NCBI GenBank assembly: GCA_913061265.1
Contig: CAJXVS010000002.1
Coordinates: forward strand, 496,001 to 560,000
Direction of reading: 5' to 3'
Length of the DNA: 64,000 bases
Origin: an uncultured Halobacteriovorax sp.
Lineage (GTDB): Bacteria > Bdellovibrionota > Bacteriovoracia > Bacteriovoracales > Bacteriovoracaceae
The position numbers were made by a program, and so were the translations under genes. The notes under the pieces are model-generated. The model ran no database searches. It had not been told where the DNA came from and worked only from the letters and a program-made list of their open reading frames with translations. Shown here one piece after another: positions 3,974-7,402 of the stretch (the first letter of the stretch is position 1; each line of letters begins with the position of its first letter).

Positions 3974-4007
3974 GGAAGGTTCTAGAAAGAGCCTTCCTTT
4001 AATTTCT
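3974..4007 (+). terminator. Probable rho-independent terminator
   Basis: GGAAGG (3974-3979) pairs with CCTTCC (3992-3997), with inner TCT/AGA pairing, followed by a T-rich tail (TTTAATTTCTT). It follows the secreted gene ending at 3963. It overlaps the last codons of the convergent msrA, so it may also reduce read-through from the other side. Confidence 0.5.
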
Positions 4008-4473
4008 TAAAGACATCAAGACCAATATGACAATAACCACCTGGGTTCTTCGCTAGGTAGTGCTGATGATTCGATTCAGCATCATAGAATTTATCAAAAT
4101 CTTCAATTTGAGTAACGACTGTAGGACCTAGAGACTTGATCTTATCTAGGGCGATAGAGGATTGCTCATCAGTTGTAGGAAAGATGGCCGATCTATATTG
4201 AGATCCAACGTCAGGCCCTTGGCGGTTAAGCTCTGTAGGATTATGCATAAAGAAAAAAGCATCTAAGAGACGATCAAAGCTAATGATCGAAGGATCAAAC
4301 TCCACTAGAACAACTTCAGCGTGACCAGTATCTTTACGGCAAATGTCTTCGTAGGTTGGGTTTAGGCTTTGGCCACCTTGGTAGCCACAGGTTGTTTTAA
4401 GGACTCCAGCAAGCTGCTTAAAGGCGTGTTCAACGCCCCAAAAACAACCTGCTGCAAAACTAACTCTTTCCAT
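3982..4473 (-). CDS. msrA: Peptide methionine sulfoxide reductase A
   Basis: A 163-residue cytoplasmic enzyme that reduces methionine-S-sulfoxide in proteins and free methionine. The GCFWGVEHAF motif places the catalytic Cys at residue 10. Other family landmarks are TTCGYQGG, DTGHAEVV, FFFMHNPT and GSQYRSAIF. The length is typical for a single-domain MsrA without a fused MsrB. No MsrB gene is in the window. The start overlaps the stop of the upstream helicase gene (TAATG), so the two are probably translated in a coupled way from one message. Confidence 0.95.
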   Translation of the reverse strand: MERVSFAAGCFWGVEHAFKQLAGVLKTTCGYQGGQSLNPTYEDICRKDTGHAEVVLVEFDPSIISFDRLLDAFFFMHNPTELNRQGPDVGSQYRSAIFPTTDEQSSIALDKIKSLGPTVVTQIEDFDKFYDAESNHQHYLAKNPGGYCHIGLDVFKKLKEGSF

Positions 4474-6578
4474 TATCTTAAACTGATTTGAATTTTTTTA
4501 TAACGACCATCTCCAAGAGAAGTCGTTTGAACTTTTTTATCATCATGAAGATGTTGATGAACAATTCTTCTCTCTGCTGAGTTCATTGCATTAAGAGTTA
4601 CAGGCTTACTTGAATCAAGGACTTTCGCCACCATTTGATCAACCATTCCAGTGATCTTAGCTTCATCAATCTTATCTCTTCCACGGCTAGGAGACCTTTT
4701 AGAACCTCTATCCTTGCTATTACCTCTGTCATTACGATCGCCTGCTTTTGCTGCGCGGGCCGGACCATTCTTTCCAAAGCTCATATTGATTCTAATATTT
4801 CCTGGAAGGTGAACTCTTGTTGTTACATAAACTTTTACAAGTTGCTCGTAAGCAAAGAGGAGTTCTTTATCATTAAGAGAGAATAATCTTTCGTCACTTC
4901 CTGAGAAGTTGATATTGATATTCTTCTTATCTTTATCAAAGTTAACTTTAACAAAGACATTCAATCTTGAAATCTTCACCATTTCCATTAGAAAAGGAAG
5001 AAGAAGCTTCTTATAGATTGGCTTAAGAGTGAACTTATAAGTTGTAGTGCGCGCTCCAAAGAAGAAGAACTTCTTAGGTCCTTGCTTAGTGATATCCCAC
5101 TTTAAAAGGCTGGCATCGTTTACTCTATAATAACCAAGAGCATTCTTTTGAGCCTTATCAAGAGACTTAGTTGTCGTAACGAAGATTCTTTTATCATCCT
5201 TACTTTCACTTCCTACCCAAGTTGGAGTTTGAAGAAGTTCATAAGGCTTAAACACCGGTGGCTTCTCATCTTTGAAGTCACGTTTAGTGTTTGTTTTTCC
5301 TCTTGAATCTTTTCTATCACCTCTATCATTTCTGTCTTTTCTATCTCTTCCGCCGTCTCTTGAAGCGTTACGATCAACGACTTGAAGAGTTTTATAGTCA
5401 ATATAAGGTTTCTTTGGAAGATTCTTGGCGAAGTCTTCGTCTGTTAATTCCATACGTGGGATCTTTGAACCAATGAGTTCTGAAATAGGATCTAGGTATT
5501 CACAATCTTCGTGAGCGCAAAAACTAACGGCCTTACCATTTGCTCCTGCTCGTCCTGTTCTACCGATACGGTGAACATAGTTAGCGGCCTCTTGAGGAAG
5601 GTCATAGTTAACAACAAAGTTAACGTCTTTAATATCAAGTCCACGAGCGGCAACATCTGTGCAAACAAGAATGGTGATTTCCTTGGCACGGAACTCTTCC
5701 ATTAATTTAGTTCTTTTATTCTGGGCCAAGCGACCTGAAATGGGCTTTGCCTTGAACTCCATTGTTGTTAACCATTCGGCCACAACATGAGTCATGAATT
5801 GTGTATTACAAAAGACTAGAGCGTAAGCATCTTCGATATTACGAAGCATGTTTACAAGGAGAGGCATCTTCTCGGCGCCAGTTACCATCGCTAGTGAGTG
5901 ATCAATATGATCAACCAGTAAGCTATCTGCGTTTAGTCTTAATTCAACTGGGTGAGAGCGGAATTTATAGGCCGTATTAAGAACGTCCATATTACTTGTG
6001 GCAGAGACCATGATCAGCTGACGGTGATCAGACATCTTGCTTAAGATAAATTCAATATCTTTTTTAAAGCCCATATCAAAGAGACGATCAGCTTCGTCAA
6101 AGACAACACCTTTAGTGTCGATAAGATCAACGCATTTTTGCTTGATCAAATCCACAAGACGACCAGGAGTCGCGATTAAAACAAAAGGGTGCTCTTTTAG
6201 AAGACCTTTTTGAGTATCAATATTTTCCCCACCAATAAGGCAAGTCGATGTGATTCCTAGAGGCTTTCCAATTTGAGTGAAGACTTTTTGAGTTTGCTGA
6301 GCAAGTTCTCTCGTAGGGCTTAGAACAACATAAGAAACTTTTCTTTTGTCGTTACCCATAAGTTCTTCATCACGAAGGATTTGTTCGATAATAGGGATGG
6401 CGAAAGAGCCAGTCTTTCCACTTCCTGTTTCCGCTTGAGCGAAGATATCTTTTCCGTCTAAAACAGGAGCGATAGTCATCTCTTGGACAGGGGAGGCATT
6501 TTCAAATCCGATTCCCTTAAGGGAAGCGAGTAGTTCTGGTTTGAGTTCAAACTCAGTAAAAGGTGTATTTGTTTCCAT
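4473..6578 (-). CDS. DEAD-box RNA helicase fused to Jag-like module
   Basis: A 701-residue ATP-dependent RNA helicase. Core motifs are in order: Q motif near residue 30, AETGSGKT (49-56), PTRELAQQ (88-95), TPGRL, DEAD (161-164), SAT, DVAARGLDI and HRIGRTGRAG. After an Arg/Asp-rich linker (about 404-440), residues about 464-517 resemble the Jag N-domain (SLDKAQKNALGYY, then KKFFFFGA). Residues about 540-600 resemble the Jag KH domain but lack its GxxG loop (the aligned position reads LNDK). Residues about 640-701 are a clear R3H domain (MNSAERRIVH, with Arg670 and His674). The fusion is unusual and points to a structured-RNA or ribosome-linked role. The gene is followed by msrA with a TAATG overlap. 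Confidence 0.92.
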   Translation of the reverse strand: METNTPFTEFELKPELLASLKGIGFENASPVQEMTIAPVLDGKDIFAQAETGSGKTGSFAIPIIEQILRDEELMGNDKRKVSYVVLSPTRELAQQTQKVFTQIGKPLGITSTCLIGGENIDTQKGLLKEHPFVLIATPGRLVDLIKQKCVDLIDTKGVVFDEADRLFDMGFKKDIEFILSKMSDHRQLIMVSATSNMDVLNTAYKFRSHPVELRLNADSLLVDHIDHSLAMVTGAEKMPLLVNMLRNIEDAYALVFCNTQFMTHVVAEWLTTMEFKAKPISGRLAQNKRTKLMEEFRAKEITILVCTDVAARGLDIKDVNFVVNYDLPQEAANYVHRIGRTGRAGANGKAVSFCAHEDCEYLDPISELIGSKIPRMELTDEDFAKNLPKKPYIDYKTLQVVDRNASRDGGRDRKDRNDRGDRKDSRGKTNTKRDFKDEKPPVFKPYELLQTPTWVGSESKDDKRIFVTTTKSLDKAQKNALGYYRVNDASLLKWDITKQGPKKFFFFGARTTTYKFTLKPIYKKLLLPFLMEMVKISRLNVFVKVNFDKDKKNININFSGSDERLFSLNDKELLFAYEQLVKVYVTTRVHLPGNIRINMSFGKNGPARAAKAGDRNDRGNSKDRGSKRSPSRGRDKIDEAKITGMVDQMVAKVLDSSKPVTLNAMNSAERRIVHQHLHDDKKVQTTSLGDGRYKKIQISLR

Positions 6579-6643: not shown

Positions 6644-7402
6644 TTAGAAGATCTCGTATTTCTTCACTTGCTCTAAAACCTCTTTAATCGAGGCTAAGAT
6701 ACCATCTTGATTAGGGAAGTCTCCAAAATCCATGAATTGCTTTTTCTCGAGGAGTTGATCAAAGTTTCGGTCAACTTTTTCTTCAACAACAGAGCCTGCT
6801 TCGTAACCAAGTTTATTTACTTTAAAGAGCCATTTTACTTCTAGCTTTGAGTCAATAATCCTAATGTGTTGATTGAGTTTCTCTACCCGCGCAAAATCCT
6901 TTCCCCCGGGGCAAGTGTACTGAATATCGATAAAGCCAGCTTTGTTCTTTAAAGACTTTCTTTTAAATCGAAAAAAGTTCTCAAAGATCTCGATGTATTT
7001 TTCTAATATCTCTATTGGGAGAATGCTTAATTCTAGAAAGCCCCCTTCAAGGAGATCGTCAGTGGCCCCGTAGTAAATATAAGGACCATTAGATTTCTCT
7101 GAAATAGCTCCATCCGTAGGAAGCTTAAATTCCCATTCTAGGCTGGCCTCGCCTTTGGCGCTTAGCTTCTCACCTTGTTTAAAAGAGAGCTGCTGCTTGT
7201 TAGTGATACCTTTTTCTTTCTTGGCCTTAAGCTTCTTGGCATCTGTTTGCGCTAGGCTAACGCCATACTGCCCAAGATCAAGTTCTTCATCGCTATGGTT
7301 TCTGAGCGTGAGAGAACCCTTTAGGCTTTCGCCTTGGCGGTGGGATTCCCCTTGGATATCTACCGAGAATTCAAGTGGTTGCTTAAAAAATGTCCCTTTC
7401 AT
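6644..7402 (-). CDS. Spo0M/arrestin-like protein
   Basis: A 252-residue cytoplasmic protein without signal peptide. The first half reads as an arrestin-type beta-sandwich: paired strands with GESHRQGESLKGSLTLRN, then a basic insertion (KKLKAKKEKGI) and a strand rich in Trp, Glu and Phe ending near residue 140. This resembles sporulation-control Spo0M-like proteins, which are found in many non-sporulating bacteria. The second half is another beta region ending in a helical tail. The function is unknown. The family assignment rests on fold-like pattern rather than on exact motifs. Confidence 0.5.
   Translation of the reverse strand: MKGTFFKQPLEFSVDIQGESHRQGESLKGSLTLRNHSDEELDLGQYGVSLAQTDAKKLKAKKEKGITNKQQLSFKQGEKLSAKGEASLEWEFKLPTDGAISEKSNGPYIYYGATDDLLEGGFLELSILPIEILEKYIEIFENFFRFKRKSLKNKAGFIDIQYTCPGGKDFARVEKLNQHIRIIDSKLEVKWLFKVNKLGYEAGSVVEEKVDRNFDQLLEKKQFMDFGDFPNQDGILASIKEVLEQVKKYEIF

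Follow-up and report, generated by a model that had tools for sequence, protein, structure and literature searches.

A DEAD-box helicase carrying a KhpB-type Jag_N-KH-R3H module in Halobacteriovorax and related genomes

The window, the whole 64,000-nucleotide stretch of an uncultured Halobacteriovorax sp. contig analysed here, encodes a 701-residue protein in which a DEAD-box helicase continues into what is almost certainly a complete KhpB-type module, with Jag_N, KH and R3H domains at its C-terminus. KhpA and KhpB are RNA-binding proteins of many bacteria that have been recognised recently; KhpB is also called Jag or EloR. The preliminary description of this DNA had claimed a helicase fused to a complete Jag/KhpB-like module. 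The open reading frame is indeed uninterrupted, and the same architecture recurs in 41 intact frames from related genomes. Both halves are of known kinds, and we found no description of their union in the open-access literature searched. The arrangement is new in this sense, as had been suggested, but it is an old, family-wide trait and no one-off of this genome. Its parts are located as follows.

4473-6578, minus strand: fusion ORF, DEAD-box helicase plus Jag_N-KH-R3H, 701 residues, uninterrupted; ATG at 6578, stop at 4473-4475
5424-6578, minus strand: helicase core, residues 1-385, main motifs all intact
5250-5366, minus strand: first linker, residues 405-443, rich in K, R and D, pLDDT <50 in the full-length model
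5025-5183, minus strand: Jag_N-like domain, residues 466-518, placed by profiles and the tail model
4776-5015, minus strand: KhpB-type KH domain, residues 522-601, placed by profiles and fold match
4866-4877, minus strand: LNDK in place of the GxxG loop, residues 568-571
4668-4769, minus strand: second linker, residues 604-637, basic and charged, low model confidence
4482-4652, minus strand: R3H domain, residues 643-699, R670-x3-H674 intact
3982-4473, minus strand: msrA (peptide methionine sulfoxide reductase), a neighbour outside the fusion

Helicase core and C-terminal module

Judged by its motifs and domains, the protein is a DEAD-box RNA helicase. Pfam places DEAD at residues 29-197 (9e-43) and Helicase_C at residues 237-345 (4e-30). 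The two RecA-like domains contain motifs I, Ia, Ib, DEAD, SAT and VI, with AETGSGKT at position 49, PTRELAQQ at 88, TPGRL at 137, DEAD at 161, SAT at 192 and HRIGRTGR at 336, and these motifs are intact in nearly all relatives as well. The best NCBIfam equivalog for the core is CshA (2e-107), at 360 bits against a cut-off of 646; the other equivalogs shown for the core also score under their cut-offs. The complete core with all its motifs is shared with CshA and other bacterial DEAD-box helicases, but where CshA has a basic tail the fusion has the KhpB module.

In the tail of the single protein, R3H is the sole part that Pfam detects (4e-12). Its R670-x3-H674 is invariant in 26 of 26 relatives, which upholds the earlier view of this R3H domain as convincing. 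Because Jag_N and KH give no Pfam match in the fusion protein as a single sequence, we turned to profiles of its relatives, sampled as 26 sequences of the C-terminal part. Pfam Jag_N matches 9 of these (best 8.7e-7) and KH_KhpA-B matches 4 (best 0.0013), while NCBIfam Jag_EloR matches all 26, with a best value of 3.9e-30 and 2.8e-17 for the fusion protein of the window. The Jag_EloR score of the C-terminal part, 63.4 bits, lies below the equivalog cut-off of 145 bits, so we call the protein a carrier of a KhpB-type module rather than a Jag/EloR equivalog.

The profile of the 26 relatives aligns with 3gku, a solved KhpB homologue from Clostridium, over positions 10-230 of 230 (E 8e-26). To rule out that R3H drives this alignment, it was trimmed from both sides. 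Jag_N and KH together still match 3gku in hhalign (P 95.7, E 8.5e-9). Five shuffles of the alignment columns give P of at most 1.5, and KhpA or the helicase core as the target at most 0.5. The fused KH domain matches the KH of stand-alone Jags from sister families with P 98.2. Jag_N by itself reaches P 22-50 against 3gku and is the weakest of the three domains, so its assignment leans on the joint alignment, the Pfam matches of the relatives and the structure model.

An AlphaFold2 model of the tail (residues 455-701) has a mean pLDDT of 84.9. Compared with 350,542 PDB chains, it matches 3gku (3e-15) and the Thermus KhpB/EloR structures 9lrg (2e-8) and 9lri (3e-7), and no other entry falls below 0.001. 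The whole-length TM-scores are low (0.29-0.53), which we read as the same folds differently placed on flexible linkers. The full-length model has a pTM of 0.41, with an uncertain arrangement of the domains. The profile search and structure prediction called for in the preliminary description thus both lead to KhpB, and profile, profile-profile and structure comparison agree on the order that it had proposed, Jag_N followed by KH and R3H.

The GKRG of 3gku aligns to LNDK at residues 568-571, confirming the earlier observation that the KH domain lacks GxxG, and the canonical loop is absent from all 26 relatives. Among these, G occupies position 1 in none and position 4 in 7, and N occupies position 2 in 23. 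Of 14 stand-alone Jags from the phylum, 13 have G at position 4 and only 1 has it at position 1. Since the first G is missing from 13 of the 14 sister-family proteins, erosion of the loop predates the fusion and was taken further in the fused lineage; a loss due entirely to the fusion is rejected on the same grounds. The tail model has a continuous helix at this site, which we do not claim because the full-length model breaks there. In pneumococcus, KH-KH dimerisation is controlled by I61 of KhpA and L239 of EloR (PMC6403258). The matching residue is L, I or V in 26 of 26 fused proteins (Leu580 here) and Y, F or I in the sister stand-alone Jags. Within the KH part, G106 and D108 are conserved.

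Distribution, genome context and origin

We sampled 291 genomes spread over the phylum. Helicase-sized R3H frames are confined to Halobacteriovoraceae/Bacteriovoracaceae, the family of marine predators to which the window belongs, where 41 of the 45 family genomes having R3H contain an intact fusion ORF with the R3H motif, one per genome. Records under the names Halobacteriovorax marinus and Bacteriovorax sp. BSW11_IV contain the fusion; in G187 and G219 it appears to be split between contigs or frames. Two genomes have a free jag instead: in G117 (L073, 1783-2541) it adjoins neither yidC nor mnmE, and in G286 (L072, 1598-2182 and 2080-2613) it has an RG-rich N-terminal part and is frame-broken. 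The helicase orthologue is absent from both at E 1e-80. At the same threshold it is also absent from the 20 family genomes without R3H, several of them 98-100% complete, so the fusion gene seems to be gained and lost as a unit. The family-only distribution holds for the sampled phylum, since bacterial and archaeal genome contigs at large were scanned only once, with one short peptide pattern. A 474-residue R3H frame in G198, which by eye resembles a P-loop ATPase joined to R3H, was considered as a second fusion type in the phylum and set aside. Some family members without R3H, such as G016, G088 and G091 (99-100% complete), apparently have no KhpB-type R3H protein and keep KhpA.

The genome of the window has one R3H domain, that of the fusion, and no match to Jag_N. 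The preliminary description had asked whether a stand-alone jag is also present; none was detected, the gap between yidC and mnmE being empty. The single yidC sits on another contig than the fusion and is followed by mnmE with no intervening gene (gene names by sequence inspection). An mnmE-like frame likewise directly follows yidC in those family genomes where the sequence is readable beyond yidC, and the fusion lies outside this neighbourhood, in which stand-alone KhpB/Jag/EloR genes are found. Other families of the phylum keep jag between yidC and mnmE, in line with the earlier statement that Jag is usually a separate protein encoded near yidC; the yidC-jag-mnmE arrangement is known from Gram-positives (PMC10117718). 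The mnmE of this genome (L078, 2819-4297) has a run of GPIGP-type repeats in the G domain region, and two other family genomes (L110 and L116) have low-complexity frames at the same place. One KhpA is encoded in the genome, with GKQG and Ile61 intact, and its gene adjoins apparent ffh and rpsP genes. Across the family, KhpA is found in 65 of 73 genomes.

Downstream, the start of msrA shares one base with the fusion stop (TAATG), an overlap that suggests translational coupling of the two genes. An msrA-like gene directly follows the fusion in L080 and L081, which belong to the same genus, and nowhere else. Upstream lies a 252-residue ORF (6644-7402, minus strand) with no Pfam match, kept as a neighbour in the same two loci. 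Both were considered as conserved operon partners and dismissed; neighbours conserved only within the genus are uninformative. An Rfam search at gathering scores found no structured RNA around the fusion gene.

Helicase trees group the fused proteins in a single clade (SH-aLRT 98-100), whose sister group is the unfused orthologues from other families; paralogues fall elsewhere. The tree of the Jag part places fused L075 outside, and non-fused family members near or among the fused ones. It is compatible with a single origin without demonstrating it, and the case for a single fusion therefore rests mainly on the helicase tree. Taken together, these sequence comparisons strongly support a course in which khpB left the yidC operon and joined one particular helicase.

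The unfused helicase orthologues have an RG-rich basic tail without a folded module, which ends in an amphipathic motif like KVxGFFKKLFG in 21 of 21 cases (amphipathic C-termini in L147-L158, L160, L176-L179, L181, L183, L187 and L198). In the same families, most stand-alone Jags have no Jag_N and start with MTGFFGKLFGKK or a similar sequence (L036 and L042-L059). The likeness between the helicase ends and the Jag starts may reflect a shared address or partner. As short basic-hydrophobic ends are common, we keep it as a lead.

A proposed role for the KhpB arm

While the tail resembles KhpB/Jag/EloR (3gku, 9lrg, 9lri) in domain order, fold and profile, and in the co-encoded KhpA, it differs in forming the C-terminal arm of a helicase, in its distance from yidC and in a KH domain without GxxG. 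Several helicases with added RNA-binding domains offer further comparisons. DbpA, which acts on 23S rRNA, has a DEAD-box core and a C-terminal RRM that picks RNA. Human DDX43 is without Jag_N or R3H, and SMUBP-2 (IGHMBP2) is an SF1 helicase without KH or Jag_N. DbpA is like the fusion in having a folded RNA-binding domain appended to a DEAD-box core, although the modules are unrelated; its RRM is mentioned in PMC11317155. In DDX43 a KH domain is attached to the DEAD-box core, but it is N-terminal with its GxxG loop intact; it sets the substrate preference and processivity of that helicase (PMC7949032). SMUBP-2 likewise joins R3H to a helicase, an analogous and not an orthologous case, and two structures of its R3H, 2lrr and 1msz, turn up in the weaker part of the fold matches to the tail model.

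We give about even odds (probability about 0.5) to the reading in which the KhpB arm targets the helicase to KhpA-linked RNAs, which the core then remodels. The module would serve as the C-terminal RNA-targeting arm of the helicase. R3H and the two basic linkers would hold single-stranded RNA, and the KH domain, lacking GxxG, would chiefly provide a surface for dimerisation with KhpA. KhpA, with its GxxG intact, would provide a second RNA contact, and the ATP-driven core could open nearby duplexes or remodel ribonucleoproteins on the RNAs picked by KhpA-KhpB. The logic would be that of the DbpA RRM or the DDX43 KH, in which an appended module picks the substrate for an unspecific core. The intact helicase motifs, the failure to detect a separate jag, the adjacency of yidC and mnmE, the single clade of fused proteins, the retention of KhpA, the hydrophobic dimer position and the precedent of the DDX43 KH speak for this reading as a whole. 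The presence of KhpA is not specific support, as KhpA is also kept in family genomes without the fusion. The lack of a conserved operon partner past the genus and the uncertain domain arrangement in the full-length model speak against the reading, and it is possible that the fused KH domain, having no GxxG, has lost KhpA binding as well.

The arm could instead work independently of KhpA, as a clamp in which KH is a structural relic and R3H with the basic linkers raises the non-specific affinity for single-stranded RNA, much like the disordered basic tails of other DEAD-box proteins. The loss of GxxG in 26 of 26 relatives fits such a clamp, as does the fact that a basic RG-rich tail suffices for the unfused orthologues, which have no folded module. 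We regard it as unlikely, since Jag_N and KH would be superfluous for a mere clamp, and yet the whole three-domain module is kept, including G106, D108 and the hydrophobic dimer position. It is also conceivable that the protein acts primarily as Jag, being the cell's KhpB for envelope or elongation control, with the helicase a passenger or merely co-localised. This would agree with the fusion being the sole R3H protein found in the genome, with free jag undetected, and with the control of the elongasome by EloR/KhpA in pneumococcus (PMC6403258). The conservation of the helicase motifs across the family makes such a role improbable. Fusion-less family genomes miss helicase and Jag together, so neither resembles a passenger, and KhpB is not known to control the envelope in the phylum.

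Pfam on its own, which detects just R3H in the tail, would also fit an assembly or frame error joining two genes, or an isolated R3H domain, but the probability of an artefact is negligible. Misassembly is ruled out by the recurrence of the fused ORF, intact, in 41 genomes with one copy each. An R3H domain standing alone is excluded by the profile alignment to 3gku, the R3H-free hhalign comparison and the fold match, the entire module matching solved KhpB structures in both sequence and fold.

Returning to the targeting of the helicase by its KhpB arm, the failure to detect a free copy here hints that helicase and KhpB normally act together on the same RNAs. As a tentative extension, the fusion might act as a motorised KhpA-KhpB chaperone of RNA, choosing RNAs via KhpA/KhpB and remodelling them with ATP within a single polypeptide. 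If this is true, free KhpB in other members of the phylum may pair with the orthologous DEAD-box helicase, perhaps through the similar amphipathic motifs at the ends of both, and the fusion would suggest that a widespread bacterial RNA-binding protein has a helicase as its partner. The permanent attachment provides a concrete, testable link between RNA binding by KhpB and ATP-driven RNA remodelling, and suggests where to seek such a link in organisms with separate proteins.
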